A DNA stretch of 35,976 nt from the NCBI GenBank assembly GCA_028688375.1, contig JAQTYG010000009.1:1-35976 (forward strand). Reading direction: 5' to 3'. Of this stretch, positions 3,080-34,443 are shown piece by piece. How positions within the stretch are numbered: the stretch's first letter is position 1; every line of letters starts with the position of its first letter. The notes below the pieces were generated by a model. It saw only the letters and a list, made by a program, of their open reading frames with translations, was not told the DNA's origin and searched no databases. The DNA is from Patescibacteria group bacterium. GTDB lineage: Bacteria > Patescibacteriota > Patescibacteriia > Magasanikbacterales > GWA2-37-8. Position numbers and translations under genes: made by a program.

Positions 3080-3086
3080 ATTTTAA

Positions 3087-3641: not shown

Positions 3642-3721
3642 AACTTGCTAAACTTATCGGCTTACCGGCTTATTATTTAACTTCGGTCTTGTTTCTTTTT
3701 TGTAAACAAACGAGGCCAAAA

Positions 3722-3762: not shown

Positions 3763-3765
3763 ATT

Positions 3766-4182: not shown

Positions 4183-4291
4183 ATTTTCACCCCCTTTCCA
4201 TGAAATATAATACATTTTTTCATAAAAAATAGTTGCGCCTCGCACTTTGTTCCTGTGGGTTTATTTTATCAAAATACCACCGAGAAAGCAA

Positions 4292-4804
4292 TTACTGCGA
4301 CGCGCCGGACAAGAATTTCAGGAAGGTGTCAACCAGCAAAAAGCTGGCTAAAACCAAAACTAAACCAATTATCGCCCACAACATGGTCTGACTGCCCTTT
4401 TTCACTTTTTCCTGATTACCGGCTGAGACCAACCATTGGAAACCGCCCCAAACCGTCATCGCCAAAGCCAAACCGCCAATCAAACCAAGGGCAGATTTTA
4501 TTATCAAGCCGATGATGGTGGACGGGCTAGCCCCGACATTAAGCGGATTTTCTAAACTAACGGTGCTGGCGCCGGAATTTCCGCCGCCGTTATTGGTTTC
4601 ACCACCTGTTTCTGCCGTACAATCCTCGGTCACTACGGTGCCGTTGCTCACGTCTTTGCACATATTGCGGTCAACTTCCGTATCGTTAATGACCGCGCAA
4701 AATTTCTCACCATCTTGAACAAAAGAACACCAAACCGCGGCGCCGGCTATTCGTGGTATCACCAGGGCTGTTAAAATAATAATTGTCACCAGAATTTTTT
4801 TCAT
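4292..4804 (-). CDS. T4SS pilin-like two-TM protein (start refined to MKKILVT)
   Basis: GLIGGLALAMTVWGGFQWLVSAGNQEKVKKGSQTMLWAIIGLVLVLASFLLVDTFL. Confidence 0.72.
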   Translation of the reverse strand: MKKILVTIIILTALVIPRIAGAAVWCSFVQDGEKFCAVINDTEVDRNMCKDVSNGTVVTEDCTAETGGETNNGGGNSGASTVSLENPLNVGASPSTIIGLIIKSALGLIGGLALAMTVWGGFQWLVSAGNQEKVKKGSQTMLWAIIGLVLVLASFLLVDTFLKFLSGASQ

Positions 4805-4806
4805 AT

Positions 4807-13094: not shown

Positions 13095-13787
13095 TCACCG
13101 CCACGAACATTCCGCCACCAGCGGACGAATCTGTTCGCAAATTTTTTCAAACTCCTCGTCGCTATAAGTAGTCATCTCCATAAAAGCCGGGTCCAGCGTT
13201 TTGGTCGGCAAAAATCTTTGCAAAATATATTTCTTCGCGCCGGCGATATGCCTGACGATTTCCATGATATCTTCCGGCGTCAGTTGTTCCTTCACCACCG
13301 TGGTGCGAAATTCATAATCCAGCCCGGAATTCATCGCCAAAGCCGCGCTCAAACGCACATCGGCCGCGTCCACCGTGGAATTAATATGCGTCTGGTACTT
13401 CCGCCACGGCGCTTTAATATCCATGGCTAAATAATCAACCAGGTTTTGTCTCAGGGCCTCGGCCAGCACTCCCGGCCGACTGCCGTTGGTGTCCAATTTT
13501 ATCGCGAAACCCATGGTTTTCAACCGCGCCATAAAATCTAACAAGTCCGGTTGCAAAGTTGGCTCACCGCCGGTAATCACCACCCCGTCCAATTTCCCCC
13601 GGCGCGTTTCCAAAAACTCAATCACCTCGTGTTCGGTGACTGGCGCGAACATGCCCTGCGACAAGTTAATCAATTCCGGATTGTGACAAAAAGGGCAACG
13701 AAAAGGACAGCCCTGCGTGAACAAAATCGCGCTGGTCCGTCCGGGAAAATCTATGAGAGAAAATTTTTGCCAACCGCCGAAAATCAT
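13095..13787 (-). CDS. nrdG: Anaerobic ribonucleoside-triphosphate reductase activating protein (radical SAM)
   Basis: CPFRCPFCHNPEL (CxxxCxxC); VVITGGEPTLQPDL; adjacent to nrdD. Confidence 0.9.
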   Translation of the reverse strand: MIFGGWQKFSLIDFPGRTSAILFTQGCPFRCPFCHNPELINLSQGMFAPVTEHEVIEFLETRRGKLDGVVITGGEPTLQPDLLDFMARLKTMGFAIKLDTNGSRPGVLAEALRQNLVDYLAMDIKAPWRKYQTHINSTVDAADVRLSAALAMNSGLDYEFRTTVVKEQLTPEDIMEIVRHIAGAKKYILQRFLPTKTLDPAFMEMTTYSDEEFEKICEQIRPLVAECSWR

Positions 13788-16700
13788 ACATCAAGAGGTA
13801 GGATCGTTTTAAACGTCCTCCTCATGGTAAACTCGGCGCGCTTGCCTTTATTCCATTGGTCCACCGGGCGCAAATAGCCGACGACGCGAGAATACACCTC
13901 GCACTTGGCTTGGCACTCCGGACATTTGAAATGTTCGCCGGCGATATAACCGTGGGTCGGACAGACGCTGAAAGTCGGCGAGAAAGTGAAGTAGGGCAAT
14001 TTGTAATTGGTACAGATTTTCTTAACCATGTTCTTGACCGCGTTCGGATCGGAAATTTTTTCACCGACAAACAAGTGTAACACCGTGCCCCCGGTATATT
14101 TGGTTTGCAAATTATCCTGCAAATCAAGCGCTTCAAAAATATCATCCGTGTAATTGACCGGCAATTGCGTGGAATTGGTATAGAACGGATCCACGTGAGT
14201 TTTTTTGTAAATTTCTTCATTGGCCACGATAATATCCGGATATTTTTCTTTATCTTTTTGCGCCAGACGGAAAGAGGTGCCTTCGGCCGGAGTCGCTTCC
14301 AAATTGTAATTGTTGCCGGTCTCCTTTTGGAAATCAATCATTTTATCACGCATGAAATCCATCACTTTTTCGGCAAAAGCGCGCCCCTTGGTCGTGGTGA
14401 TAGTCTCCCCCGGCATCAAATTAACAATCGCCTCGTTCATGCCGAGAATGCCGATGGTATTAAAATGATTCTTCCAATAACAGCCGTGGCGCTCTTTCAT
14501 GTTGCGCAAATAATATTTGGAATAGGGATAAAGATTTTTGTCGGTAAAATTTTCCAGCACCTTGCGTTTTAACTCCAAACTTTCCTTGGCCAGTGTCATT
14601 AAATCACCCAGCTTCTTCAAAAAGGTCTTTTCGTTTTTAGCCGTATAGCCCAAGCGCGGCAAATTCAGGGTCACCACGCCGATGGAGCCGGTCAACGGAT
14701 TGGCGCCAAACAAACCGCCCCCGCGCCGTTCCAACTGGCGATTATCAATGCGCAGACGACAGCACATGGAGCGGGCGTCTTCCGGACTCATATCCGAATT
14801 GATAAAATTGGAAAAATAGGGCACGCCGTATTTGCCCGTGATTTCCCAAAGCGCTTTCAGTTTCGGGTTATCCCAATCAAAATCTTTGGTAATGTTGTAG
14901 GTCGGAATGGGAAAAGTAAAAACCCGCCCTTTGGCATCGCCGGCCATCATCACTTCGAAAAATGCCTTGTTCAATAAATCCATTTCTTTTTGGAAATCGC
15001 CGTAACATTCTTTCTGCGGTTTGCCCCCAATCAGCACCGGCTGGTCTTTGTAATAGCTCGGCACGTTCAAGTCCATGGTGATGTTGGTGAACGGAGTATT
15101 GCCGGTAATAAAAATTTTGCCATTGCGCCGGGCGATTACGGTTTCATTGTCAGTATTGGGACACCAAATCACGCCCTGATAATCAATTTGCTTAACCTCA
15201 TTGATGTAGGTATCTGTGTGTTTGATCAAGCGAATGATATAACGATCTTTTTTTGACAATTCATTATCCGGCTTTCTGACCAAAACTGTCGCGCCATAAC
15301 CGGCATTAGCCGCCGTCATCATCAAACCGTCTTTGATGGCCGCCGAAGCGGTGGTTATTTTGCATTCGTCGTGGCCGTCGCCCCTAATATATGTTTCCAA
15401 AAATAATCTGGCGGTCTCAGTGTCGGCCGATAAAATTTCCCGCGGCACAAACTTGATACCGGCCGATTTATCGCCGCCGAAAAATGCCAAAATCTTTTTG
15501 GTAGAAGTGGCATCAAAACGCAAAACTTGACAATCAGCGCCCAAACCGGACTGCGTTCTTTCGGTATAAGACAAGCTCAACTCTTCGCTTAAGGCCTTAA
15601 TTTCTTCATATTCGCTCGGTTTAATTTCGCGAGATTGATAAATACTGACGCGGCCGGCGCCCTTCTCGCCTTTATCCAATGTGCCCTCGGCTATCACCCA
15701 AGCTAAAAATTTAACCCAAGCGTCGCTTAGGGCGCTTTGCCCTTTAACATTGCCGAGCGAACCGACCGGTACGATAAACGGGGATTTTAATTTCAAAACT
15801 TTTTCAATCGGCTCCAAAACATAACTACCGCCGTTAAATTGTTTTCTGACGACTCTGTGTTCCGGAGAGATCAACTGGTCGGTGATGCGGTTTTTTAAAT
15901 TATACATTTTGCCTTTATACTCGCGGGCAAAAATCCGCTTGACCGGCAGATATTCGATAACGCCGGACTCAACGTTAAAAGTGGCGATAACATCTTTTTC
16001 CTTAACACCTTTATAACCTTTCCAACCTTCGGCCGTTAAAATTTCCGTGTCTTCCGACATACATTGAAAGCCCACCCGGGTCGGTACATTCATGTTAAAC
16101 AAAAATTCCTGCAGGGCCTGTTTGGTTTCTTCGTAAGTTAGATTGTCGTAACGAATAAACGGCGCGAGCAAAGTATCGAAATTGGAGAAGGCTTGCGCGC
16201 CGGCCGCTTCGCCCTGCAAAGTATAGAAAAAATTCACCACCTGGCCGAGAGCGCTGCGCAAATGTTTCGGCGGTTTTGATTCGATTTTCCCGGGCACGCC
16301 TTTGAAACCTTCCAACAACAAATCGTGCAAGTCCCAACCAACGCAATAAACCGACAAAATATTCAAATCATGAATATGCATGTCACCGGTCAGGTAAGCT
16401 TCTTTAATTTCTTTGGGATAAATTTTATTCAGCCAGTAGGCCTTGCTGATTTCGGATGAAATATAGTTGTTCAAGCCCTGCAGAGAAAAAGTCATGTTGC
16501 TATTTTCGTTCACCTGCCAGTCCAGCTGGTCCAAATACTGATCCACCAGATTAACATTCGCCCGATTATTCAGCTCGCGCAGTTGAGCGTGCTGGTCGCG
16601 GTAAATAATAAAGGCCTTGGCGGTTTTTTTGTACGGCGAGCTAAGCAAAACCTCTTCCACCAAGTCCTGAATGTCTTCCACGTTGGGAATTTTGGCCTTA

Positions 16701-16861
16701 ATCAAATCGCCGGCCATGGCCAACGCTTTGGCGGTAAGTTTTTGGGCGATTTTTTCGTCAAATTCACCGGTGGCCACGCCGGCTTTGGCGATCACCCGGG
16801 TAATTTTGGCAGCGTCAAACTTTACCACCCGGCCGTCTCTCTTTTTTATTTGCTTGAACAT
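13784..16861 (-). CDS. nrdD: Anaerobic ribonucleoside-triphosphate reductase, interrupted by an intein
   Basis: ATP-cone N-terminus; GDMHIHDLNILSVYCVGWDL; CPTHGYIAGEHFKCPECQAKCEVYSRVVGYLRPVDQWNKGK (Zn site and Gly-radical loop). Confidence 0.95.
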   Translation of the reverse strand: MFKQIKKRDGRVVKFDAAKITRVIAKAGVATGEFDEKIAQKLTAKALAMAGDLIKAKIPNVEDIQDLVEEVLLSSPYKKTAKAFIIYRDQHAQLRELNNRANVNLVDQYLDQLDWQVNENSNMTFSLQGLNNYISSEISKAYWLNKIYPKEIKEAYLTGDMHIHDLNILSVYCVGWDLHDLLLEGFKGVPGKIESKPPKHLRSALGQVVNFFYTLQGEAAGAQAFSNFDTLLAPFIRYDNLTYEETKQALQEFLFNMNVPTRVGFQCMSEDTEILTAEGWKGYKGVKEKDVIATFNVESGVIEYLPVKRIFAREYKGKMYNLKNRITDQLISPEHRVVRKQFNGGSYVLEPIEKVLKLKSPFIVPVGSLGNVKGQSALSDAWVKFLAWVIAEGTLDKGEKGAGRVSIYQSREIKPSEYEEIKALSEELSLSYTERTQSGLGADCQVLRFDATSTKKILAFFGGDKSAGIKFVPREILSADTETARLFLETYIRGDGHDECKITTASAAIKDGLMMTAANAGYGATVLVRKPDNELSKKDRYIIRLIKHTDTYINEVKQIDYQGVIWCPNTDNETVIARRNGKIFITGNTPFTNITMDLNVPSYYKDQPVLIGGKPQKECYGDFQKEMDLLNKAFFEVMMAGDAKGRVFTFPIPTYNITKDFDWDNPKLKALWEITGKYGVPYFSNFINSDMSPEDARSMCCRLRIDNRQLERRGGGLFGANPLTGSIGVVTLNLPRLGYTAKNEKTFLKKLGDLMTLAKESLELKRKVLENFTDKNLYPYSKYYLRNMKERHGCYWKNHFNTIGILGMNEAIVNLMPGETITTTKGRAFAEKVMDFMRDKMIDFQKETGNNYNLEATPAEGTSFRLAQKDKEKYPDIIVANEEIYKKTHVDPFYTNSTQLPVNYTDDIFEALDLQDNLQTKYTGGTVLHLFVGEKISDPNAVKNMVKKICTNYKLPYFTFSPTFSVCPTHGYIAGEHFKCPECQAKCEVYSRVVGYLRPVDQWNKGKRAEFTMRRTFKTILPLDV
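15098..16063 (-). mobile_element. Intein (322 aa) with LAGLIDADG-type endonuclease motifs inside NrdD
   Basis: Junctions GFQ|CMSEDTEILTAEGW ... NGKIFITGN|TPFTN; motifs FLAWVIAEGTL and FLETYIRGDGH; 966 nt in frame. Confidence 0.92.
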
Positions 16862-19246: not shown

Positions 19247-20320
19247 TTATTTTTTGGTAATCCAATAATCCATCAATAATTTCTGCCGCAACTTAAAAGC
19301 GTTCCCGTGCTTCAACATGCCCAAGTAAGACTGCACTGCTTCCTCTTTTGAGTTTTCATCTATCCGCGCAAACATCCTTTGCTTTGTCGCCCGCCGCAAA
19401 ACACGATGGCCGGGGAAGTTAACCCAGCCGAGAAAATCCACGCCGGATGAATATGTTTGGATAAAAACTTTTTTGTCGTGCAAACGCAATTTCAGCCGCA
19501 ACTCTAAAAATTCAGCAATTCGCGGAATAATATTTTCCAGCCAATCCCTGTCCGCCGACAAAATAGCAAAATCATCGGCATAACGGATATATTTTTTCGC
19601 GCGCAAATTATGTTTCACCCATTGGTCTAATTCATTCAAATATACATTGGCGAATAATTGCGAAGTCAAATTGCCGAGTGGCAGGCCGACTTTGTCATCC
19701 CCGTGAAAACGGGGATCCAACGGCGACTGGATTCCCGCCTGCGCGGGAATGACAAACGAGTGTGGACAACGCGCGGTTTCAAAACTCCCCACCACCTCCC
19801 CCAGCAACCACAAAACATTCACATCCGCAACATGCTCGCCCAAAATCCCCAGCAAAACATCATGGTCAATACTGGCGAAAAACTTACGAATATCGCCTTT
19901 CAATACCCAGCAGGTCCGATGATCATTTCGGCTTTCGCTCCGCGCCATCTGATTGAATCGCTTCACCGCCTTGTGTGTGCCTTTGTCCAGTCGGCACGAA
20001 TACGAATCGGCAATAAATATCCGGTCAAAAAACGGATATAACACGCGGTAAATGGCGTGATGTAGAAGACGGTCGCGCACGCTGGCTTTGTGAATCTGGC
20101 GCGGTTTTGGGTCGCTGATATTAAACGCTTCGTATGGTCCGTGCCGATAAGTCCGATTGGCCAAATCCTCGTGAAGAGATTTAATATTGTCGGCCAGAGT
20201 ATATTCAAACGCCAAAACATCCAGTTTCCTTTTTTTACCGACAACAAACTCGCCCCAGGCGAGAAATAAATTTTTCATTGAAATTATATCTTCAAAACTA
20301 TGGACCAATCTACTCTTCAT
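19247..20320 (-). CDS. DGR-type reverse transcriptase
   Basis: KGDIRKFFASIDH, GLPLGNLTSQLFANVYLNELDQW, KYIRYADDFAIL; linked to TR/VR pairs and avd. Confidence 0.93.
   Translation of the reverse strand: MKSRLVHSFEDIISMKNLFLAWGEFVVGKKRKLDVLAFEYTLADNIKSLHEDLANRTYRHGPYEAFNISDPKPRQIHKASVRDRLLHHAIYRVLYPFFDRIFIADSYSCRLDKGTHKAVKRFNQMARSESRNDHRTCWVLKGDIRKFFASIDHDVLLGILGEHVADVNVLWLLGEVVGSFETARCPHSFVIPAQAGIQSPLDPRFHGDDKVGLPLGNLTSQLFANVYLNELDQWVKHNLRAKKYIRYADDFAILSADRDWLENIIPRIAEFLELRLKLRLHDKKVFIQTYSSGVDFLGWVNFPGHRVLRRATKQRMFARIDENSKEEAVQSYLGMLKHGNAFKLRQKLLMDYWITKK
19691..19756. repeat. 66-bp palindromic repeat inserted in frame in the RT ORF
   Basis: tttgtcatccccgtgaaaacgggg...cccgcctgcgcgggaatgacaaa; minus strand translates as FVIPAQAGIQSPLDPRFHGDDK, a translation typical of dispersed palindromic repeats. 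Confidence 0.85.
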
Positions 20321-20701
20321 ATAAAAACAAATCTCTCAACCCCCCCCCAAGGCAATTTAGACGCAAGCAAACTTCCGATAGTAATTAAACTAAGCGTGAG
20401 TTATAAACAATGGCACGAATATTTAATCGCCCTCCCCCGCCACACGCGCTTTACCATCGGCAGTAAAATTGACAGTTTGTTCGCCGACTGTTTGGAACTT
20501 TCGCTCATGGCCGGATACGCCCCGCGCGATAAAAAATCAGAAGTGGCGCGACGCTTAAGCGTAAAATTTGACGCCTTAAAATTTTTTCTGAAACTGCTTT
20601 GGGAAATAAAAGGGCTGGATAATAGAAAATATACCACGCTCTCGCCACACCTAAACGAAATCGGCAAAATGATCGGCGGGTGGATGAAAATGCTTGGATA
20701 A
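20300..20701 (+). CDS. avd: DGR accessory variability determinant-like four-helix-bundle protein
   Basis: RFTIGSKIDSLFADCLELSLMAGYA...SVKFDALKFFLKLLWEIKGLDNRKYTTLSPHLNEIGKMIGGWMKM matches the Avd/four-helix-bundle pattern. Confidence 0.85.
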   Translation: MDQSTLHIKTNLSTPPQGNLDASKLPIVIKLSVSYKQWHEYLIALPRHTRFTIGSKIDSLFADCLELSLMAGYAPRDKKSEVARRLSVKFDALKFFLKLLWEIKGLDNRKYTTLSPHLNEIGKMIGGWMKMLG

Positions 20702-20716
20702 TTTTTTTATACGCAA

Positions 20717-20736
20717 AAGGGTGCTCGCGCACCCTT
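20717..20736. terminator. Hairpin between avd and TR
   Basis: aagggtgc-tcgc-gcaccctt; minus-strand loop is GCGA (GNRA), followed by TTTT. Confidence 0.5.
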
Positions 20737-20754
20737 GTTATATTTTCCCACCAT

Positions 20755-20868
20755 CAGCGGGAAGACGCCCAAGTTGTCGTTGCGGTTGTCGTCCCAGTTG
20801 TCGTTGCAGTTGAGCCCGGTCTCATCGAAGTCACCGAGGTTGAGCCGGTTGCCGTCCGAGTTGCGGGT
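20755..20868 (-). repeat. DGR template repeat (TR), 114 bp, rich in AAC codons
   Basis: Minus strand acccgcaactcggacggcaaccggctcaac...aacttgggcgtcttcccgctg; aligned by eye to VR1 and VR2 with differences only at TR adenines. Confidence 0.97.
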
Positions 20869-21146
20869 CATAATATGCCGTCAATCATCCAGAACACCAC
20901 CTTTTGTCCGCATAATGCCAATCAACAGAAGCAGACTCAAGATTGAATATAATTTGAAATCTAAAATTTACTAACTAACGGCACGGGGTGTGAAAATAAT
21001 ACAAAGATAATTAATATGCCGGGGCAATCCTTGAACGGCTCCGTTCGAATTATTTATCTTTGGCAACTGCCGGCCGGCATCCGTGAACGCCGGCATCTTG
21101 CGACGCAGTGGGTATATTATAATGAAAAAATAAAAATTAAAAAAGG

Positions 21147-21176
21147 GCCCGAGATACCGAAGTACCAAGGGCCCAA
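21147..21176 (-). terminator. Rho-independent terminator of DGR target 1
   Basis: Minus strand gggcccttggtac-ttcg-gtatctcgggcccttttttaatttttatttttt. Confidence 0.75.
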
Positions 21177-21182
21177 GCGAAG

Positions 21183-21218
21183 CCCCGCACCGACCGCCGA
21201 AAGCGGTCTGGTGCGGGG
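21183..21218 (-). promoter_or_regulatory. DGR-type hairpin/cruciform downstream of VR1
   Basis: Minus strand ccccgcacc-a-gaccgc-tttcg-gcggtc-ggtgcgggg (15 bp plus one bulge); identical copy downstream of VR2. Confidence 0.75.
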
Positions 21219-21242
21219 GACCTAACGAAAGAGCCAAGCGTC

Positions 21243-21956
21243 CTAGGAACCAAGCTCCACCCCCAGCGGGAAGACGCCCAAGGAGCCGTAGCGGTGGTCG
21301 TCCCAGGTGACGTAGCAGTGGAGCCCGGCCTCATCGAAGCCACCGAGGTGGAGCCGGGAGCCGACCGAGTAGCGGGTATCCGTCCGCACCCAGTCGGTGT
21401 TGAGCGGGGCGCGCTCACCCGTGCGCTTGAAGTGCGCCATGATGAGACCGGCGACGAGAGCCGCCGAGCCGAACGAGGCGCAGTGGCTCGCGGGCAAACC
21501 GTACTTCTCGCGAAGCTCGACGAGCGCCTGCATCTGCTCCTCGGCGTTCTTCTTCGTCGCGACCATGCGCGGGATGAAGAACACCAAGCAGTCGACCGTG
21601 GGCTCGTCGTTCTTGAGCTCCCAGTCCTGTAGGTAGCTGAACTTCTCGTAGCAGGGGCCGGCGAGGGGGGCGTGCAACTTCAGGGTGAAGCCGGCCTTCA
21701 CTGCCCAGAGGACCGGGCCGGTGTAGCCCAGGTCGCTCGCGAGCTTGCGCCACTTCGCGACCGCGCCCACGAGGTGGGCCGGAGCGTCCTTGTCGTCGAC
21801 GTGCGTGAAGAAGGTGTTCTCCACGGCCGCGCGGACCAGACCAGCGACGAACTCCTTGAACTCCTTGCCCTTCTCCACCAACACGGATTGCTCCTCATCA
21901 GAGAGACCGGTGATGATGGCGGCGATGGCGTTGAACGAAGCCTTGCGGTTTGCCAT
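21243..21956 (-). CDS. DGR target (variable) protein 1
   Basis: Start refined to MANRKAS after AAGGAG SD; VR at the 3' end of the gene; paralogous to target 2. Confidence 0.93.
   Translation of the reverse strand: MANRKASFNAIAAIITGLSDEEQSVLVEKGKEFKEFVAGLVRAAVENTFFTHVDDKDAPAHLVGAVAKWRKLASDLGYTGPVLWAVKAGFTLKLHAPLAGPCYEKFSYLQDWELKNDEPTVDCLVFFIPRMVATKKNAEEQMQALVELREKYGLPASHCASFGSAALVAGLIMAHFKRTGERAPLNTDWVRTDTRYSVGSRLHLGGFDEAGLHCYVTWDDHRYGSLGVFPLGVELGS
21264..21377 (-). repeat. DGR variable repeat VR1 (114 bp)
   Basis: Same length as TR; 16 substitutions, all at TR adenines (7 to T, 6 to C, 3 to G). Confidence 0.97.
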
Positions 21957-22107
21957 GACAGACTCCTTTCCCAAAGTGGGATTTTCTCTCAACCGAAGTG
22001 GCCGAGAGGATTGCTAGGATTGTTTATTCCCAGCCTTCTTTTGGTCAATTTGGCTAAGTTGACCCAAAGAAAGCCAGGATATTGAAAAGAACGGTATTTA
22101 ACAAAGT

Positions 22108-22136
22108 AGTATAGCACAAAAACGCCCTTTTGTCAA
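22108..22136 (-). promoter_or_regulatory. Sigma70-like promoter of DGR target 1: TTGACA-N17-TATACT
   Basis: Minus strand ttgaca aaagggcgtttttgtgc tatact. Confidence 0.75.
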
Positions 22137-22222
22137 CCCCGACGTAAAAAGTCAGGGTCCCGACCCCCAAAAGGGGCGTCGGGAGGGTCTTTCTGGGCTA
22201 AGATAAGCCATTTTTATATTTT

Positions 22223-22250
22223 AAAAAGCCCATATTTCAGGGCTTTTTAT
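22223..22250 (-). terminator. Terminator downstream of the SpoIID-like gene
   Basis: aaaaagccctgaaatatgggcttttt on the minus strand. Confidence 0.65.
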
Positions 22251-22279
22251 TCTTTGTTAATTGTTCTTTGCTCATTCCT

Positions 22280-24160
22280 CTAATACACCCTCGCCACTTC
22301 CGTGCCGGTGTAATAATACCGGAGCAACTGGTCGTAAGTCCAAGCGTCTTTGTCGGCGCGGTTGGCGGCGTCCTGCGCGCTCATGCCGACGCCGTGGCCG
22401 AACATGCTCTGGCCGGCGTCGTATGTGCATTCCACGCTTTGTAGCCACGGCTTATCCGTCCCGCCCCAGACCTGCACCCAAGTGCGCGTCCGCCCATCGG
22501 AATGACCGAAGTACGGCGTGATGACCGGCGTATTGGAATACAACACCATCTCGCCATAAGTCGCTCGCGCCGCTTGCACCACTCTCGGCATCAGCACTTC
22601 GGAATTATATCCCAAATACAATTGGTCGGCCGTGGTCGCCACCACATCGTAGGTGCGCTGGTCGGCCGGGGTGCCGTTATTTATTTGATAATACGCGTAG
22701 GAACGCGCCGCCACGAGTAGCGCCTTGATATATTCCATAGCCGCGCCATTGGAGGTTTCAGCGATGCCGGCGACGTATTCATCCAACAATAATTCGTTTA
22801 CCACCCAAGGCAAAGCGCTTTTGGTGGAAAATTTGTATTCCATCACGTTGCGGTAAGCGTTAAAATTTTTACTGCCTTTCCAGCTGACCAAACGGCTGTA
22901 ACCCGGCAAAGTAAAATAACCGCCCGCTTCCACCGGCACAAAACGCACCGGGTCGCGGACGACAAAACTTAACGAGGCGGCGGTGAAAGTATAAAGTCCG
23001 TCAAAATATTTCACTTCCGCCAGTTCATTGGCGGGAAGAAATCCTTTCAGAATTTCGCCGACATAAATTTGATATTCAAACGGCGATTGAAATTTTACCG
23101 GGTCGTCGGTTTTATACAACCCCACGCGAATTTTCGGTTCGGCAATCAGGGCGCGCGGTCCGGTGTTGAACACCGGTTCGGTATAGCCGATGGGCGCGTC
23201 AGCCGTGACCGTCACCGGCAATTCCAAAGTCCCGCCATCCAAAGTATGGCCATTGGCCGTCAATTGAAAGCGAGCGATGTACGCGCCTTGTTTGGCCGGA
23301 GCGCGAAAATTAAAATTTATTTCCGTCACACCGCCCGGGGTAATTGTTTCTGTTTTCTCAAAAATCTTTTTTTCATTTATCCACGACTGGTCGGCCAGCG
23401 CCACTCGCGTTACTTCGGCAATGGAGACATCGCCTTGCGGACTGCTTCCGGCCTCTTGCCACAAATAATTATTCCAAATCAAAGTGCCGTTATTTATGTA
23501 GCGCACTTTAAAATTAATCTGGTCGCCACCCGGCGCCGAGACGCTTCGCGCGGAAAAGGCCAGCAGATTGGCCTGATACTCTTTGCTCACTTCTTCGGCT
23601 TGGTCATTGGTGCCGGCGGCGGAATTGCCCTCGGCGCTTTCGTCGGCGGCCGGAGTCACGACGGTGGCCGGAATGACTTTGAATTTAATATAAAAATAAC
23701 TGGACTTAATCCATGTTTTATTTTCCGCGGCCAAATAAAAATCCTCGCGGTAATTTCCCGTTTTACTCGGGGCGGTGAATTTTATTTTTATTTCCGCGAT
23801 TTGTCCCGGTTTGGCGGTGGCGGAAATTTTCGCCGGATGGTCTTTGCCGAGCCAGTTGGCGGAAGCGAACGCGCTGGCCCGATAATTTTTATTTACCGTA
23901 TAAGCGGAAACATAATTCGCGCCGGTGGCATACCAGGTCGCCTTGCCGATATTTTTTATTTTAATCGTTACTTCTTTTGTTTGCCCGGCTTGAATCGTAA
24001 TCGGGTCGGGCACTGACTGGCCGGCATAGGCGCCGACATAAGTTAAGTCCTTGAATGGCGGAGGGGTAAAATCAATAGCCAGGACTTTTTCCGCGCCAAA
24101 AAACAAGGCAAAAACCATTGCCAGTGAAAAAAATATTGTACGCTTAAAGGCCATATACAT
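22280..24160 (-). CDS. SpoIID/LytB-domain secreted protein with Ig-like N-terminal domains
   Basis: LLDEYVAGIAETSNGAAMEYIKALLVAARSYAYYQ; PVITPYFGHSDGRTRT; MFGHGVGMSAQDAANRA. Confidence 0.9.
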   Translation of the reverse strand: MYMAFKRTIFFSLAMVFALFFGAEKVLAIDFTPPPFKDLTYVGAYAGQSVPDPITIQAGQTKEVTIKIKNIGKATWYATGANYVSAYTVNKNYRASAFASANWLGKDHPAKISATAKPGQIAEIKIKFTAPSKTGNYREDFYLAAENKTWIKSSYFYIKFKVIPATVVTPAADESAEGNSAAGTNDQAEEVSKEYQANLLAFSARSVSAPGGDQINFKVRYINNGTLIWNNYLWQEAGSSPQGDVSIAEVTRVALADQSWINEKKIFEKTETITPGGVTEINFNFRAPAKQGAYIARFQLTANGHTLDGGTLELPVTVTADAPIGYTEPVFNTGPRALIAEPKIRVGLYKTDDPVKFQSPFEYQIYVGEILKGFLPANELAEVKYFDGLYTFTAASLSFVVRDPVRFVPVEAGGYFTLPGYSRLVSWKGSKNFNAYRNVMEYKFSTKSALPWVVNELLLDEYVAGIAETSNGAAMEYIKALLVAARSYAYYQINNGTPADQRTYDVVATTADQLYLGYNSEVLMPRVVQAARATYGEMVLYSNTPVITPYFGHSDGRTRTWVQVWGGTDKPWLQSVECTYDAGQSMFGHGVGMSAQDAANRADKDAWTYDQLLRYYYTGTEVARVY

Positions 24161-24279
24161 CTAATTACGGCTGACACGGAAATACATGACGGCGAAAGAT
24201 ATTATAGCAGAGAATGAAATAAAAAAAAGGCCCGGGCGCCAAAACGCCAGGACCTGGAGAAACCAGAGAGGAAGAATAC

Positions 24280-24648
24280 CTACTGCAATATGGATACCTC
24301 TGAGATGGTAGTGATTGTCGTGCGACCATCGTTCCATTTAATTTGCAGCTTGAAAGGTGCGCATTCTCCTCTACCAGGAGCTCTGTTCCAAACATCCGCG
24401 CGAGTACGAGCGTGCGGCACGACCACGACCCCTGACGAACCATCCCGGTTCCTCAAGACTCTTGCGCCGCACCACTTTTTCCAATACGAATGCGCTAACG
24501 ATATGCGCTCTTCAATCGTACTGCCTTTTGTGCAATTCCCTTTGAGAATATAGCTGATCAAGCGCGCGCATGCGACTTTGGTCGTTGGCACAACCGTTAT
24601 TTTGAATTTACCTAATAGCGCAATCTGCTTTTCTGTCGGGCTTGTCAT
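24280..24648 (-). CDS. Hypothetical protein (122 aa) between the two DGR targets
   Basis: SD gggaggaat upstream; promoter TTGACA-N17-TATTTT; terminator-like ggcgcccgggcctttttttt downstream. Confidence 0.65.
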   Translation of the reverse strand: MTSPTEKQIALLGKFKITVVPTTKVACARLISYILKGNCTKGSTIEERISLAHSYWKKWCGARVLRNRDGSSGVVVVPHARTRADVWNRAPGRGECAPFKLQIKWNDGRTTITTISEVSILQ

Positions 24649-24773
24649 TTGGTATTCCTCCCAGGCTCTTCGGGTTTCTTATTTAAAAAATGAACGATAT
24701 GAATTAATAACCGAGTTAAAATAACACTATTCCGCCTTTTTGTCAATCCCCCCGCATAAGGAGTAAGCCCCGA

Positions 24774-24795
24774 CCTGCCTCGCCGGCAGGCGGGC
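24774..24795. repeat. Short palindromic repeat CCTGCCTCGCCGGCAGGCGGGC, copy 1
   Basis: Second copy at 24945-24966. Confidence 0.7.
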
Positions 24796-24944
24796 GCAAG
24801 GTTGGGGTCCCGACTCCGCCGACTGGCGGACGTCGGGAAATAAGGAGTAAGGAGCGAATGTAAAACTAGGTTGTCTCCCCCTCTTTGAGGGGGAGAATAA
24901 GAGGGGGAGGAATGAATTCGCGAAAAGGCCTCCCCACCTTAATC

Positions 24945-24966
24945 CCTGCCTCGCCGGCAGGCGGGC
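24945..24966. repeat. Short palindromic repeat CCTGCCTCGCCGGCAGGCGGGC, copy 2
   Basis: Same sequence as 24774-24795. Confidence 0.7.
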
Positions 24967-25050
24967 TCCCCTCAAAGAGGGGAGGAAAACGTCCTGCAAA
25001 AAAAATAAAAAGGCCCGAGATACCGCGAAGTACCAAGGGCCCAAGCGAAG

Positions 25051-25086
25051 CCCCGCACCGACCGCCGAAAGCGGTCTGGTGCGGGG
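25051..25086 (-). promoter_or_regulatory. DGR-type hairpin downstream of VR2
   Basis: Identical 36-nt hairpin to 21183-21218. Confidence 0.75.
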
Positions 25087-25110
25087 GACCTAACGAAAGA
25101 GCCAAGCGTC

Positions 25111-25860
25111 CTAGGAACCAAGCTCCACCCCCAGCGGGAAGACGCCCAAGTTGTCGTCGCGGCTGCCGTCCCAGTCGCCGTCGCAGCCGAGCCCGGTCTC
25201 ACCGAAGTCACCGAGGCCGAGCCGGTCGCCGCCCGAGTGGCGGGTATCCGTCCGCACCCAGTCGGTGTTGAGCGGAGCGCGCTCGCCCGTGCGCTTGAAA
25301 TGCGCCAGGATGAGGCCGGACACGAGAGCCGCCGAGCCGAACGAGGCGCAGTGGCTCACGGGCAGACCGTACTTCTCGCGGAGCTCGGCCAGTGCCAGCA
25401 TCTGCTCCTCGGCGTTCTTCTTCGTCGCGACCATGCGCGGGATGAAGAACACCAAGCAGTCGACCGTGGGCTCGTCGTTCTTGAGCTCCCGGTCCTGCAG
25501 GTAGCTGAACTTCTCGTAACAGGGGCCGGCGAGGGGGGCGTGCGATTTCAGGGTGAAGCCGGCCTTCACTGCCCAGAGGACCGGGCCGGTGTAGCCCAGG
25601 TCGCAGGCGAGCTTGCGCCACTTACTTCTTGCTTCAATGAACGCGATTGGGACTTCCTCATCAGCAAGAGAGATGACGAACTCTTTCTTCTCTCTTCCCT
25701 TTCTTCTTTTTTCTGGCGACTTCTTCGGCCAGACAACGCCCGCCGGCATCGGCCCGCCTTTGAGAAACAGGCCGAGGTCGTGCGCGAACTCATCGCCGTT
25801 TTTCCCGGCCAAGCGTTCTCTCACCTCACCTACCAGATTCCACGCTGTTTTGTAGTCCAT
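25111..25860 (-). CDS. DGR target (variable) protein 2
   Basis: Shares its C-terminal part with target 1 (KWRKLA.DLGYTGPVLWAVKAGFTLK...); VR at the 3' end; different N-terminal domain. Confidence 0.93.
   Translation of the reverse strand: MDYKTAWNLVGEVRERLAGKNGDEFAHDLGLFLKGGPMPAGVVWPKKSPEKRRKGREKKEFVISLADEEVPIAFIEARSKWRKLACDLGYTGPVLWAVKAGFTLKSHAPLAGPCYEKFSYLQDRELKNDEPTVDCLVFFIPRMVATKKNAEEQMLALAELREKYGLPVSHCASFGSAALVSGLILAHFKRTGERAPLNTDWVRTDTRHSGGDRLGLGDFGETGLGCDGDWDGSRDDNLGVFPLGVELGS
25132..25245 (-). repeat. DGR variable repeat VR2 (114 bp)
   Basis: 14 substitutions versus TR, all at TR adenines (13 to G, 1 to C). Confidence 0.97.
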
Positions 25861-28737: not shown

Positions 28738-28768
28738 AATCCGTCCGCCTTAGGCGGACGGATTTTTA
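28738..28768 (+). terminator. Rho-independent terminator of the AI-2E transporter gene
   Basis: aaatccgtccgccttaggcggacggattttta. Confidence 0.75.
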
Positions 28769-28824
28769 ATTCTGGCCGAACGGCCGACGAGTCCTAATGT
28801 GTTGCGGGGCCCGGACTTGAACCG
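28768..28824 (+). repeat. 57-bp direct repeat (copy 1) containing a 3' tRNA-fMet fragment
   Basis: aattctggccgaacgg..cgagtcctaatgtgttgcggggcccggacttgaaccg; 2 mismatches to 35868-35924. Confidence 0.85.
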
Positions 28825-28899
28825 ATTCACGAAAAATTGGATTAGCCGCCTGTGCGGCGCAAATACAAAAGGACAGTGTTAACTGCCCCTTCGCACTTC

Positions 28900-29144
28900 G
28901 TTGAATATATTGGACGAAGTGCGAAAATTTTACGAAACTGGGGGAGCTAATGTGTCCGCCTCCGGCGGACAAGATTAATCTTATATGGGCGGGCAAAAAG
29001 GAAGGGGTTGGGGGAGGGAATTTTTGCCCGCCCTTCTTCGCCCGCCCGTTTACCCGCCACAGCCCCGCCTCTGCGGGGCGACGGCTGGGCCTCTTTTCCG
29101 CCCTGGGGTGGTTTTTCGTATTCGCTATCGCGAATGCGCCGCCG
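28900..29144. repeat. Left arm of imperfect inverted repeat (B segment)
   Basis: gttgaatatattggacgaagtgcg...attcgctatcgcgaatgcgccgccg; reverse complement at 33980-34244. Confidence 0.85.
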
Positions 29145-29157
29145 GAAATTTTTTTAA

Positions 29158-30021
29158 TTAACTGCCTGTTTTAAACTCCATCCGCCGTTGTTCAATTAGT
29201 TTCAACGATTGGATGAAAACATGATCTCGCAGACCACCTCTATAAGTTGTCGTCACATTTATCTCAACCCAATGCCCCAATAGGCCGTGCATATCAATAG
29301 ACGTTCTAAGATGTTCATCTAGGGTGGCTGGTATCGAATTGCCTTCTCCATCGACTTTGAAACCGAGATGCCTTTTTGTCGCGTCAAGATCAACACGATT
29401 GATCCACCCTTGCAAAATCTCAAAATGGTCGCCATCTATTTCCTGAGTCGTCTCTGCATCATCGGCTAGGGCAGTAAATTGTTTTTTATCTTCAAATTTT
29501 ATCGTTGTGGTAGTGTTGCCTGGTACGCCACAGGTAAATTCATCCCCCGTTTGCTCAAGCGGATTTATAACATTTGTAACTGATTTAATGAACTCTGAAT
29601 TTTGTAAAAGCTCGATTTTTACCTGATCACCAATTTCTGTCATAAGCTGGGGTGATAAAGTTTTTAATTCGGTAGCACCTTTTTGCTGAACCAAAGTAAA
29701 CACCATCACAATCAAAACTCCCAAATTAATAATACCTTGATAGTCATTTAATGATTTAACGGATTTAAAGACAATCTTAACTCTTTTTTTGAATGAACCT
29801 TTTTGAAACGCTTCAATCAATATCTGAACGTCCTTTGGACTAAAATTGATTTTTTTATGTTTTGATAATATTCGCGTCGCAATCAAAATAGCATCTTCGA
29901 GCCCAATAATTTCATTTTTCAAAGCGCTTATTTCCATCGTGCCATTAAAAGATGGACCCTTATAAGCAAGGTCGAATAAATAATCGGGAAATTGTCTTGC
30001 CGGAAAAAGCGTATCGTTCAT
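29158..30021 (-). CDS. Hypothetical protein with one predicted TM segment
   Basis: 287-aa ORF; YQGIINLGVLIVMVFTLVQQ. Confidence 0.7.
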   Translation of the reverse strand: MNDTLFPARQFPDYLFDLAYKGPSFNGTMEISALKNEIIGLEDAILIATRILSKHKKINFSPKDVQILIEAFQKGSFKKRVKIVFKSVKSLNDYQGIINLGVLIVMVFTLVQQKGATELKTLSPQLMTEIGDQVKIELLQNSEFIKSVTNVINPLEQTGDEFTCGVPGNTTTTIKFEDKKQFTALADDAETTQEIDGDHFEILQGWINRVDLDATKRHLGFKVDGEGNSIPATLDEHLRTSIDMHGLLGHWVEINVTTTYRGGLRDHVFIQSLKLIEQRRMEFKTGS

Positions 30022-30071
30022 AAAATTCCTATAAATTTGGGCGGCGGATGATCAGGCCGCCGCCGCCGTGA

Positions 30072-30272
30072 TTAACTCCTATTGTAGGGCGACTGGTTCG
30101 TGGGTTGTAAACTAATCCCCAACTCATATGCTTTTGCCCTTATCGCTTCTTCGGTCCTACCCAACTTAAGTCCAATTACTCTGGTTGGGGTGTTCTTCTT
30201 AGCCAGTATCCTCAACTGCACTACTTCTTGGGCAGTCCATTGTTTACCAGTATTCCTTGTGTAGAATACCAT
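30072..30272 (-). CDS. Small SANT/Myb-like helix-turn-helix protein
   Basis: KQWTAQEVVQLRILAKKNTPTRVIGLKLGRTEEAIRAKAYELGISL. Confidence 0.7.
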   Translation of the reverse strand: MVFYTRNTGKQWTAQEVVQLRILAKKNTPTRVIGLKLGRTEEAIRAKAYELGISLQPTNQSPYNRS

Positions 30273-30289
30273 ATATTTAGTTGTTTTTT

Positions 30290-30440
30290 TAACGCATCTA
30301 TGATATATTTAAAATACCTCAGATGGTTCTGCAGACACAAAGCTGTCCCGACTATAGGCTATACCATGGTTTTTAGCGAACAGCGTCCGCAGATATATTA
30401 TGCCTTAACCTCCGCTCGAACGGAGGTTTTGGTTTTTTGT
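30290..30440 (+). ncRNA. Candidate structured ncRNA ending in a Rho-independent terminator
   Basis: Long stem TCTGC-A-GAC-ACAAA-GCTGT ... ACAGC-GTC-C-GCAGA plus aacctccg/cggaggtt hairpin and T-run. Confidence 0.45.
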
Positions 30441-30442
30441 TT

Positions 30443-30826
30443 TTATTTTATTTTTTTATCTAACTGGATTACAAATATTTTGCCAAAGTTTGGGTGACTA
30501 ATTTCTTGCGGCAAATATTGCCCAGACAATTCATTGCATTTTAAATCATAATTTGAAAAAAACGATCTGCAGGTTACTCCTCCCGATGTTTTATTTTCAG
30601 AATGCGTAATGGTAAACCGGCCGTTTACTTCATTGTTAGAAAATAAAAATCCTATTGAATTTTCTTGTTTATTATAAAAAAGGACTACAAATTTAAAACC
30701 TTCGATATTGTTGCGGTGGTAAAAGCCGGAATTAAAACCAAAACTGTGTGCCTTATTTATACTGATATTATTATTACTCAACTTAGTGCCTGTTTTTGTG
30801 AATTGTTCAAATTGAGATATATCCAT
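30443..30826 (-). CDS. Hypothetical protein
   Basis: 127-aa ORF with normal composition. Confidence 0.55.
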   Translation of the reverse strand: MDISQFEQFTKTGTKLSNNNISINKAHSFGFNSGFYHRNNIEGFKFVVLFYNKQENSIGFLFSNNEVNGRFTITHSENKTSGGVTCRSFFSNYDLKCNELSGQYLPQEISHPNFGKIFVIQLDKKIK

Positions 30827-31030
30827 ATAGATTTTTTAAATTTAAAATTTAACCTTATTATTATAGCACAAGTAAAGAAAAATTGTCAAGCAATTAATCG
30901 GGCGAATATTTTACAACTTGCCCAGATTTAGATATTCCAACAATTTATTTGCCCCAATACTATAACATAAAGAAGTAAATTTGTCAATAGGAGATTATTA
31001 AAATATGACTATTTAGCTTAAAATAAACAA

Positions 31031-31055
31031 AAAACCGCAACATCGAGCGGTTTAT
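31031..31055 (-). terminator. Terminator downstream of the R-M operon
   Basis: Minus strand aaccgctcgatgttgcggttttttg. Confidence 0.65.
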
Positions 31056-31078
31056 TTTGCTACTCTGTGGATAACTTT

Positions 31079-32149
31079 TCATTTGGCGTCTCTACAAACT
31101 ACGTAGTGCAAAAACTCTAAAGTGTTTTCCGCTTTATAATCACGGCCGCTGTCCGCTTTAAATCTATTGTATTTTTTGGTAAAAAAACCATATTTTCCGC
31201 GTACGCCCATAATTTCCTTAATATCGCCTGGCGTCATTAAACCCTCATTATTGTAACTCAAAAATATGTATTTTACATTTGCGTTATCAATCAAATCTTT
31301 AAACGCCTTTTTCACCTGCGGCCGAGAACAATAGGCGGATTTTTGATCTGCATAATCGCGTAGCCCTGTTTTTCCATGAATATTGGGACTATCATATTTT
31401 GCGATTGTTTCCAAAATGTGATAATTCGTCGCATACTGTCTTTGGTTATATGGCGGATCCAAATACAAGACGTCTCCTTTAACTGTCTTGATCAGCTTGT
31501 TTATATCTTCATTGTAAACTTTATGGTCCTGATCGTTGACGATTAACTCTGCTGGTTTCAATAAAAACAATTTTTGTGCTGACTTTTTTATTTGTTTTAA
31601 AAAAGCGCCATAAACAGAAGCGGTATTCGCGCATTTATCAACCGACTCAACCAGGCTTGTCAATAAAAAATAATATTCTCCATCCGTTATTATTTTCTTT
31701 TCTTTCCACCTCTCAATTCTCTGTCTTATGGCATCGCACTTTTTGCCATTTTCGTCGGAAAAATATTGCCGCTGCTCTTTTTTATTTTTGGTACCGCCGG
31801 GGCAATAATTTTTATATATAAATCCTTCTACTCCAACCATTTTGGACAAATAATCACATACTACATCTTTTCGCTCTGATAATTTTATATTTTTTAGTTC
31901 CGGCACGGTATCGACTAATCCTTCAAATTTTAGTACACGATGATTTTCTATATAATGTTTGTTTAAAACGTAGCTATAATATTGTAAGTCGTTAGAAATT
32001 ATACTATACCCTTTCTTTTTAAAATACGCGCCCACCGCACCAGTACCAGCGAATAGGTCACAAAAAACATGGCTGTTCTTATCTACGACTTTGTTAATTG
32101 ATTCTTCCAAAAATTTGAGCAGGGATAATTTTGAACCAATATAATTCAT
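31079..32149 (-). CDS. D12-class DNA adenine-N6 methyltransferase
   Basis: NYIGSKLSLLKFL; FCDLFAGTGAVGAYF; VLYLDPPYNQRQYATNYH. Confidence 0.9.
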   Translation of the reverse strand: MNYIGSKLSLLKFLEESINKVVDKNSHVFCDLFAGTGAVGAYFKKKGYSIISNDLQYYSYVLNKHYIENHRVLKFEGLVDTVPELKNIKLSERKDVVCDYLSKMVGVEGFIYKNYCPGGTKNKKEQRQYFSDENGKKCDAIRQRIERWKEKKIITDGEYYFLLTSLVESVDKCANTASVYGAFLKQIKKSAQKLFLLKPAELIVNDQDHKVYNEDINKLIKTVKGDVLYLDPPYNQRQYATNYHILETIAKYDSPNIHGKTGLRDYADQKSAYCSRPQVKKAFKDLIDNANVKYIFLSYNNEGLMTPGDIKEIMGVRGKYGFFTKKYNRFKADSGRDYKAENTLEFLHYVVCRDAK

Positions 32150-32151
32150 AT

Positions 32152-32838
32152 TTATTCTGTTTCTTCTGGATATAATTTTTTAAATACTTGTTCTACAGCC
32201 TCATTTGCTGACAGCTCGCTTATCTTCCTTACAATAACCTTTCTATATTCAACCGGATCATACTGGTAACACCCTTTGCACCCCAATTCCTCAGAATAAT
32301 TTTCATCCCCTACATAAAAATCATACGGGTTGCCTTTAATATTTTTTGCGCTCCAGCGTCTGTTAGTTTCCTTACATTTTTTACAAATTTGTCTTTTAAT
32401 ATCATTAGCCGCTTTTGAAAGTGGTTGAAAATCAGCTATTTTTTGCGCTGCTAAATTTGAAAGTCTATGGTCATCTTTTCTGCCAGCCTTATGGTCAATT
32501 TCAATCTTTGTGTTTTCAGAATTACCATTAACTCCCAACATTACACAATTTTGCGTTTTATAAAAATCTTTTATATCTTTTCTAATGTTTTGATTTAAAA
32601 TTTTTTTATTGTTGAACCCAGATAAACGAATTCTGTCGATAGAATTTCCATTTGTTTTACTTTTATCAAATTCAACAATATATTGCTTTGCCAAACTAGA
32701 ATTAGCCCGACACCAACTTCCACCATTTCCAAGTTGAAGTTGTTTGTATTTACCAACGAATTCTAATACCGAAACCCAACGACTTATACCTTTTTGGCTG
32801 GGCATTCCAAGTTCTAAAAATAATTCCTTTTTTGTCAT
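32152..32838 (-). CDS. Putative HNH-type restriction endonuclease
   Basis: KIEIDHKAGRKDDHRLSNLAAQKIADFQPLSKAANDIKRQICKKC; lies between two methyltransferases. Confidence 0.72.
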   Translation of the reverse strand: MTKKELFLELGMPSQKGISRWVSVLEFVGKYKQLQLGNGGSWCRANSSLAKQYIVEFDKSKTNGNSIDRIRLSGFNNKKILNQNIRKDIKDFYKTQNCVMLGVNGNSENTKIEIDHKAGRKDDHRLSNLAAQKIADFQPLSKAANDIKRQICKKCKETNRRWSAKNIKGNPYDFYVGDENYSEELGCKGCYQYDPVEYRKVIVRKISELSANEAVEQVFKKLYPEETE

Positions 32839-32839
32839 A

Positions 32840-33622
32840 TTAATATTTGAAAATTAGAATGTATTCGTGTTTAAAAATATAATAATCACTGGAAAGAGCC
32901 CGGTAGCGCCAAATAGCTTCTTTGTTTAACTTAGCGCGGTTACCTTCCATATTCTTTATAACAATACTTTTAAGAACTAGGCCCAACTTCATCATCTCAT
33001 TTATACAGTAAAAATTCAAAGGAATCCACCGACCTTGAGAATATTTATCACCGATAACTACCACAACATACCGTCCATGTTCCAAAATCGATAAAGTGTT
33101 TTTAACAACTTTTGCGAATTTATCCAAAAAATCTTTTAAAGAAACGGCATTTGAGAGATCCTCTTTTTTATCACTAAACTTGACAATATCAGCATACGGC
33201 GGGTGCAGTATCGCCAGTTGCACGAATTGTCTACGGTGCTTCTTCAAGGCTTCCTTAACACTATCAAAAGTCTTTTCCTTAATGCTATCACCTGATATAA
33301 ATTCAAAAAAATTCTTTTTTGAGTCAATTTTCCCTCTGACAAATTCAACCATCTTGGACTGGATATCCACGCCCACACAATTACGGCCCAGTGTTTCGGC
33401 TTCAAAAGCGGTAGTACCACTGCCAACGAAAGGATCAAAAATAACATCATTTTTCTTAGTGTACCTTAAAATTAATTGGCGAGGAATTTGCGGAACAAAA
33501 TTTCCGTGATAAAAATTACTATGTTTACCTGTTTTGTCCCTCTCACTAATTAACCACAAACTATCTGTCCAAATTTCCGAACTTTTCCAATTGTCCAAAT
33601 CGACGTCATTAAATTTGGGCAT
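32840..33622 (-). CDS. DNA methyltransferase (N4/N6 amino-MTase, HPPY motif)
   Basis: LAILHPPYADIVKFSD; FDPFVGSGTTAFEAETLGRNCVGVDI. Confidence 0.88.
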   Translation of the reverse strand: MPKFNDVDLDNWKSSEIWTDSLWLISERDKTGKHSNFYHGNFVPQIPRQLILRYTKKNDVIFDPFVGSGTTAFEAETLGRNCVGVDIQSKMVEFVRGKIDSKKNFFEFISGDSIKEKTFDSVKEALKKHRRQFVQLAILHPPYADIVKFSDKKEDLSNAVSLKDFLDKFAKVVKNTLSILEHGRYVVVVIGDKYSQGRWIPLNFYCINEMMKLGLVLKSIVIKNMEGNRAKLNKEAIWRYRALSSDYYIFKHEYILIFKY

Positions 33623-33623
33623 A

Positions 33624-33836
33624 TCAATTTAATAAATCATCCACCTTAACATCTAGCGCCTTGGCAATCTTTGAAATTGTATCAACCGTCGGATTGGTAT
33701 TGGCCCCTGATTCAATTTTAATAATCGTGTTATAGGTAACATCGGCCAATTTGGATAAACGATCCTGCGAAACGCCAATTTTATTACGGTACTTTTTTAT
33801 ATTTTCAGCGATAACAGATTTGCCACTTGACGACAT
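33624..33836 (-). CDS. XRE-family HTH regulator (R-M controller-like)
   Basis: IGVSQDRLSKLADVTYNTIIKIESGANTNPTVDTISKIAKALDVKVDDLL; first gene of the R-M operon. Confidence 0.85.
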   Translation of the reverse strand: MSSSGKSVIAENIKKYRNKIGVSQDRLSKLADVTYNTIIKIESGANTNPTVDTISKIAKALDVKVDDLLN

Positions 33837-33979
33837 AGTAATAGATTACTATAATTATATTATTAGTATCCGACCACCCATAATCTGTTGTGATTATATC
33901 AAAAAATCAACCATCCGTAAAATCTCAAGGGAGCTACAATTGCGCGCGCACGGGAGGGTGGGGCAAGCGCAAAACGGTT

Positions 33980-34244
33980 CGGCGGCGCATTCGCGATAGC
34001 GAATACGAAAAACCACCCCAGGGCGGGAAAGTGGCCCAGCCGTCGCCCCGCAGTGGCGGGGCTGTGACGGGTAAACGGTCGGGCGCGTGAGGGCGGGCCA
34101 CGCCAAAGGCGGACGGGCAAAAATTCCCTCCCCCAACCCCTTCCTTTTTGCCCGCCCATATAAGATTAATCCTGTCCGCCGGAGGCGGACACATTAGCTC
34201 CCCCAGTTTCGTAAAATTTTCGCACTTCGTCCAATATATTCAAC
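33980..34244. repeat. Right arm of inverted repeat (B segment, inverted)
   Basis: Reverse complement resembles 28900-29144. Confidence 0.85.
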
Positions 34245-34333
34245 ACATTAGGACTCGCCGACCGTTCGGCCAGAATTTGGTAAGGTTTTTTCCACAACCA
34301 CGCCACTTTTTGGCCAGCGAGGCGGCGGTTCGT
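34241..34333. repeat. 93-bp perfect inverted repeat, left arm (Y segment)
   Basis: Exact reverse complement of 35812-35904 by hand check. Confidence 0.95.
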
Positions 34334-34443
34334 GGTCGCCACGGGCGACCCGGGCGTAAATACGCCCGCTAATTTTTTCCACATTTCGCGACAGCGAAAA
34401 ACAAAGCCAATTTTCACCACGCTTTACATTTAACCCAAGGAGT

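Follow-up and report, generated by a model that had tools for sequence, protein, structure and literature searches.

A diversity-generating retroelement with one template and two target genes in a Magasanikbacterales genome, and a candidate recipient signal in its clade

Bacteria of the candidate phyla radiation (CPR) are among the richest in diversity-generating retroelements (DGRs). Here we describe a DGR from a Patescibacteria group bacterium of the Magasanikbacterales (assembly GCA_028688375.1), whose genome of 969 kb in 33 contigs is rated 100% complete. The locus lies on contig JAQTYG010000009.1, of which positions 1 to 35,976 were analysed (35,976 nucleotides, hereafter the window). A preliminary description, made by a model from the sequence alone, had reported a complete DGR with a reverse transcriptase (RT), the accessory gene avd, one template repeat (TR) and two variable repeats (VR1 and VR2) in target genes about 3.8 kb apart. 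All of these parts were found where it had placed them (Table 1), with the VRs separated by 3868 bp. Read along the minus strand, the order is target 2, a SpoIID-domain gene, target 1, TR, avd (reversed) and RT. The locus is very probably a genuine two-target DGR of the CPR clade, rewriting two genes from a single template.

Pairwise alignment agreed with the earlier claim that the repeats differ at TR adenines only, and the translations of TR, VR1 and VR2 were as previously given. VR1 differs from TR at 16 positions (7 A>T, 6 A>C and 3 A>G) and VR2 at 14 (13 A>G and 1 A>C), such that all 30 changes fall on the 28 adenines, while the 86 non-adenine sites of the 114-bp repeats are identical across TR, VR1 and VR2. 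As a rough upper bound, the chance of an adenine-only pattern is (28/114)^16, or about 2e-10, for VR1 and (28/114)^14, or about 3e-9, for VR2. The same bias was found in a CPR comparison set, 72 of approximately 125 loci with the same architecture, including two near-CPR viral contigs, in which 1229 TR/VR differences were at adenines and 32 at other bases. Each VR sits at the C-terminus of an intact target open reading frame (ORF), with the initiation of mutagenic homing element (IMH, or IMH* in the TR) at its 3' end. Homology between TR and VRs extends 7 nt beyond the repeat, to position 20748, and here the TR carries IMH* GATGGTGG and both VRs carry GGGGGTGG; the 2-nt difference is common to both VRs and one of the two bases is not an adenine. 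A search of the 969-kb genome with the TR returned TR, VR1 and VR2 only, with no further VRs.

The surroundings of the VRs allow a stricter comparison. The two targets have a common C-terminal module of about 170 amino acids (aa), from residue 81 to the end, whereas their first 80 residues are unrelated. Outside the VR, 21 of 375 nt of this module differ (5.6%), in 13 synonymous and 8 non-synonymous codons, and at this rate approximately five non-adenine differences would be expected among the 86 sites of each VR, where none was observed. Since neither VR departs from the TR at any non-adenine site despite this divergence, each was rewritten from the TR. VR2 moreover still has the template adenine at sites where VR1 differs, and vice versa, so that neither VR, in its present form, is a descendant of the other. 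The simplest reading of these patterns is that the one TR was copied into each gene in a separate homing event.

Table 1. Positions of the DGR components and adjoining features in the window
Feature	Coordinates	Strand	Remarks
DGR reverse transcriptase (RT)	19247..20320	-	357 aa; catalytic YADD and GLPLGNLTSQ motifs intact
In-frame palindromic-repeat insert of RT	19694..19771	-	residues ~184-209, motif A to motif B'
avd accessory gene	20300..20701	+	inverted; head-to-head with RT, overlaps RT start
Hairpin followed by TTTT	20717..20736	-	11 nt 3' of TR homology; terminator-like for TR RNA, here also for avd
IMH*-like TR extension	20748..20754	-	ATGGTGG; GGGGTGG in VRs
Template repeat (TR)	20755..20868	-	114 bp, 28 adenines
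Terminator-like hairpin 3' of target 1	21145..21174 (approximate ends)	-	GGGCCC..GGGCCC, then T-run
GC-rich hairpin 3' of VR1 array	21182..21219 (approximate ends)	-	read from sequence
Octamer array 3' of VR1	21224..21254	-	CTTGGTTC CTAGGACG CTTGGCT CTTTCGTT
Target gene 1	21243..21992	-	249-aa ORF from TTG; later ATG (~236 aa) likelier start
VR1	21264..21377	-	alignment to TR
SpoIID-domain cell-wall protein, between targets	22280..24160	-	conserved host gene; outside DGR
122-aa ORF beside target 2, slot 2	24280..24648	-	no family match
Octamer array 3' of VR2	25092..25122	-	sequence identical to VR1 array
Target gene 2	25111..25860	-	249 aa; N-terminus unrelated to target 1
VR2	25132..25245	-	alignment to TR

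The layout had been called unusual in the preliminary description, but the inverted avd is the rule among CPR DGRs. The window and 80 named CPR loci yielded 78 with an avd gene, and in 77 of these it is reversed and directly upstream of the RT; it is reversed in 70 of 70 loci of a second, partly overlapping set, and likewise in three near-CPR viral contigs. The positions of the TR (about −540 to −405 from the RT start) and VR (about −1000) in CPR loci are as regular as the orientation of avd. The window, with its CPR-clade RT and inverted avd, is typical of its lineage. It shares with the CPR/Patescibacteria DGRs (clade 2 of Roux et al. 2021, PMC8144416) the order VR, TR, reversed avd and RT, the spacing, and the hairpin and array described below, and differs from the typical member in having two VRs and a rare target family. 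Its Avd matched the bAvd family PF22296 above the Pfam cut-off (6.7e-11) and the model NF033474 at 6e-20 and 71 bits, below the model cut-off of 80.

The DGR of the Bordetella phage BPP-1 (mtd, avd, TR, brt) is alike in its homologous RT and Avd, adenine mutagenesis, C-terminal VR and 3' IMH/IMH* pair. All 15 BPP-1-type viral relatives, at around 32% RT identity, have a co-directional avd and carry the TR in the interval from avd to RT, with 120-190 nt separating TR and RT. In contrast, the window has neither a co-directional avd upstream of the TR nor a co-directional spacer (Sp) RNA between TR and RT; avd is inverted in that interval, a terminator-like hairpin follows the TR instead, and an array 3' of the VR and a second target are present. 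A spacer RNA hidden antisense in avd was considered and rejected, as synonymous-codon conservation showed no strong excess at the avd 3' end, the last few, poorly aligned codons excepted.

The hairpin after the TR is a general feature of the clade. Starting about 12 nt 3' of the TR, a strong hairpin was found in 61 of the 72 loci, built from 59 different stem sequences, and 4% of shuffled TR flanks reached the same score. Its T-run is directional, with 6.7 T of 9 on the TR-sense side against 1.3 on the other, and the mean folding z of the TR 3' flank is about −3.8; the hairpin of the window is terminator-like in both directions. No such hairpin was seen between TR and RT in the BPP-1-type relatives. 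The structure resembles an intrinsic terminator that would end a short TR RNA and, as a clade-wide element, looks to be undescribed.

On the VR side, simple hairpins were first considered as the conserved element, but their signal within 60 nt of CPR VRs was weak and inconsistent, and the search therefore turned to a tandem array. Across the 72 loci, the 60 nt 3' of the VR showed a 7-8-nt periodicity (z of the autocorrelation 11.3 for lag 7, 16.8 for lag 8; harmonics at 15-16), which was absent 60-140 nt downstream of the VR and absent 3' of the TR. The motif CT[TCA]NG occurred 253 times in these VR flanks compared to 61.5 ± 6.9 in shuffles (z ~28), mostly spaced by 8 or 7 nt. The fitted unit is C T T (G/A/T) G (A/G) (C/T) C, approximately CTTRGRYC, with around seven units from about +6 to about +63, and the array score exceeded the shuffled 99th percentile in 65 of the 72 loci, the same loci on which the unit model was fitted. 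In a held-out set of 53 non-redundant loci, with the motif count set beforehand, the motif occurred 176 times against 49.3 ± 6.8 expected (z ~19; lag-7 z 14.3, lag-8 z 12.7), and it was not enriched in the TR flanks of that set (34 versus 45.6 expected). BPP-1-type relatives have no such array. In the window, the array has the same sequence 3' of both VRs, and its score of 17.3 lies above the shuffled 99th percentile (14.8). Most CPR loci carry the array in place of a GRNA-loop-type hairpin after the VR; the GC hairpin of the window lies about 37 nt 3' of the VR homology and reads TTTC in the sense direction and GAAA in the antisense. We found no description of such an array in the literature searched, which left out two key surveys (Paul 2017, Wu 2018), and as a clade-wide feature it looks to be undescribed and a new lead.

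As the array adjoins recipients and not donors, it suggests a recipient signal, and we lean towards the view that it plays this part in the CPR clade, in the role of the BPP-1 GRNA-loop hairpin. It may instead be a 3' untranslated region element of the target mRNA, acting in stability, termination or localisation; this is possible, though we would not bet on it. Its position between target stop codon and terminator in most loci fits such an element, as does its weak structure (mean folding z about −1.6). However, chains of at least four units occurred at 18 loci beside VRs and at two positions elsewhere in 1.05 Mb of flanking CPR sequence (two in shuffled sequence), and one of the two off-VR chains was only 91 nt from a VR. 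Furthermore, some arrays start within the target ORF, ahead of the stop (L117, L182), and the BPP-1-type DGRs, which mark VRs differently, have none. The locus can also be compared with the nanoarchaeal DUSEL4 DGRs (PMC4372165), which have a similarly G-rich IMH (TGGGGT there, GGGGGTGG here) and a base-changed IMH*, but carry a GRA-loop hairpin inside the target gene, where the window has an array 3' of the VR and a GC hairpin further on. Whether CPR target recognition as a whole departs from the hairpin type, with an array marking the VR, a separately terminated TR RNA and an array-bearing module that recruits targets, is a broader proposal on which we judge the balance to be about even.

Two-VR loci are uncommon among those retrieved. 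They comprise the window, among the CPR loci with a TR/VR (72 with two near-CPR viral contigs counted in), as well as L192 (a near-CPR viral contig), L079 and L081. To have two targets is thus less common, yet multi-VR DGRs are already known and make up 28.6% of DGRs (PMC6642488). That of Vibrio cholerae 1311-69 (PMC6642488) similarly serves the C-termini of two related targets from one TR, whereas the window has its targets, which differ entirely in their N-termini, in separate slots on either side of a conserved host gene. No matching DGR RT is present in the congener G001, where the bPH, SpoIID and flippase genes are consecutive, only about 80 and 105 nt apart, and both intergenic slots around the SpoIID gene are empty. 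In the window, RT, avd, TR and target 1 lie in the first of these gaps, and the 122-aa ORF and target 2 in the second. Two further DGR RTs, with TR/VR pairs of their own, are encoded in the genome of the window (G000), on contigs 15 (L081) and 17 (L080); L081 comprises a TR and two VRs on a contig of 5.5 kb, with one VR on the opposite strand.

The target family was found in 7 of 389 sampled genomes of the phylum, 141 of which carry a matching RT. No viral homologs of the window target were found, a first contig scan with the target as query gave no match, and the target could not be aligned by hhalign (probability 5%) to the profile made from twelve typical CPR targets. The target genes are GC-rich compared to their own RT (0.67 versus 0.46). 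Across the loci compared the corresponding means are 0.52 and 0.38, and targets were more than 0.05 higher in 59 of 70 loci. G009 has a DGR in the same first gap with a target of the common CPR type, and G003, which has the closest RT, combines its DGR with yet another kind of target than that of the window. As related RTs and slots are found with different targets, RT/avd and TR/target appear, from these sequence comparisons, to have been exchanged as separate modules. G003 (L062, L063) also holds an orphan relative of the window targets, 160 kb from its DGR and with the array kept, for which no remote TR was detected.

Target 2 could be a duplicate whose VR was inherited in diversified form and is not rewritten any more, leaving only target 1 served by the DGR. 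Its separate slot behind the SpoIID gene, the nearly identical 3' flanks of VR1 and VR2, which point to a fairly recent duplication, and the sharply different substitution spectra (A>G in 3 of 16 and 13 of 14 changes) are what such a history might leave. We nevertheless consider it unlikely, given the adenines that VR2 keeps where VR1 has changed, its identity to the TR at all non-adenine sites while the flanking module drifted, and its retained IMH and array. The A>G excess of VR2 was also considered as a unique oddity and rejected, since A>G makes up at least 90% of the changes in 5 of the 72 first-listed VRs, although it is unusual. Almost exclusively A>G changes were observed in VR2 and in L141, L144, L147, L151 and L166, while other VRs of the clade are mixed, as is VR1 from the same TR; the spread of spectra looks wider than binomial sampling would give.

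The RT itself is of the DGR lineage, its closest solved relative being neither a group II intron RT nor a retron RT, the affinities that the preliminary description had named as refuting. It matched Pfam RVT_1 (2.7e-20) and PHROG 1423 (3e-105), its best solved-structure match by sequence was the BPP-1 bRT (8ub7, 2.4e-41), and its predicted fold (predicted local distance difference test, pLDDT, 79.5) again gave the BPP-1 bRT as best Foldseek match (1.9e-21, template modelling scores 0.72/0.78). Against the group II model it scored 138 bits, where the cut-off is 300 bits. In a tree of 103 RTs, with group II intron and retron RTs outside its rows, the CPR clade split from the BPP-1-type viral RTs with 100/100 support, and the window RT was sister to that of G003 (100/100) within a mostly Magasanikbacteria group, in line with a CPR host. 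Identity to CPR homologs was 55-76%, the upper value being that to G003.

The RT contains an in-frame insert of 26-28 aa, a copy of a palindromic repeat with around 30 (partial) matches in the genome, which is missing from G003 and lies in a region predicted to be disordered. At this site, between motifs A and B', 20 of 101 distinct CPR RT segments are at least 12 residues above the mode. In-frame palindromic-repeat inserts were observed at the same site in the window and in L025, L026, L030, L109 and L130. Some inserts of other RTs are recognisably of the same repeat family read in another frame, and this suggests a tolerant loop that may have received such repeats recurrently. That the insert broke the RT, leaving the TR/VR pattern as the past footprint of a recently dead relic, is quite improbable: its absence from the closest relative and its origin as a genomic repeat are consistent with this, but the reading frame and all catalytic motifs are kept, the insert sits in a loop that is predicted to be disordered and is long in about one fifth of the clade's distinct segments, sometimes through the same repeat family, and the identity of both VRs to the TR at all non-adenine sites means that no drift has accumulated there. 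The DGR is probably active.

Certain points do weigh against a working two-target system with an array as its signal. The repeat insert could lower RT activity; with regard to the C-type-lectin fold of DGR targets, the target family had no usable match in Pfam, PHROGs, NCBIfam or PDB, and its AlphaFold model, from four sequences, reached a pLDDT of 41 only; the array of the window has four units compared to a median of seven; and the untranslated-region reading of the array also counts here.

The features can be brought together in a proposed mechanism. A short minus-strand TR RNA would probably end at the hairpin just past the TR. RT and Avd would then copy this RNA, misinserting opposite adenines, a step whose footprint is observed and whose enzymology is taken from BPP-1. 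The cDNA would replace the VR of target 1 or target 2, with retrohoming starting at the shared IMH, as in BPP-1. The 7-8-nt array, downstream of the VR and not of the TR, would mark the recipient, and may be contacted repeatedly by an RT-Avd complex; the BPP-1 Avd is a pentameric ring. Copying of the array-bearing C-terminal module behind new N-terminal domains would recruit further targets, as seemingly happened here.

Elsewhere in the window, direct repeats of 57 bp (96%) bracket about 7 kb (28768-35924) with a large serine recombinase (34444) and methylase-like genes, which is probably an integrated mobile element. One of these repeats overlaps the 3' part of a tRNA-Met gene (35901-35974), and the element contains long inverted repeats (28900-29153 and 33971-34244). 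An anaerobic ribonucleotide reductase (NrdD) frame at 13784-16861 has an apparent intein-like insert before the main NRDD match, and about nine tandem short membrane-protein genes at 208-5715 have the same two-helix pattern (pilin/TrbC-like paralogs by eye).

To our knowledge, discrimination between recipient VR and donor TR is understood only for BPP-1-like DGRs. If the VR-specific array is a recipient signal, it would offer a possible new addressing signal for targeted diversification. The window further suggests how a second target may be recruited, by placing the C-terminal module, array and terminator downstream of a new N-terminal part in an adjacent intergenic slot. With modular N-termini and one variable C-terminus, the outcome would be two proteins, of different function, that display variable binding surfaces drawn from one library.

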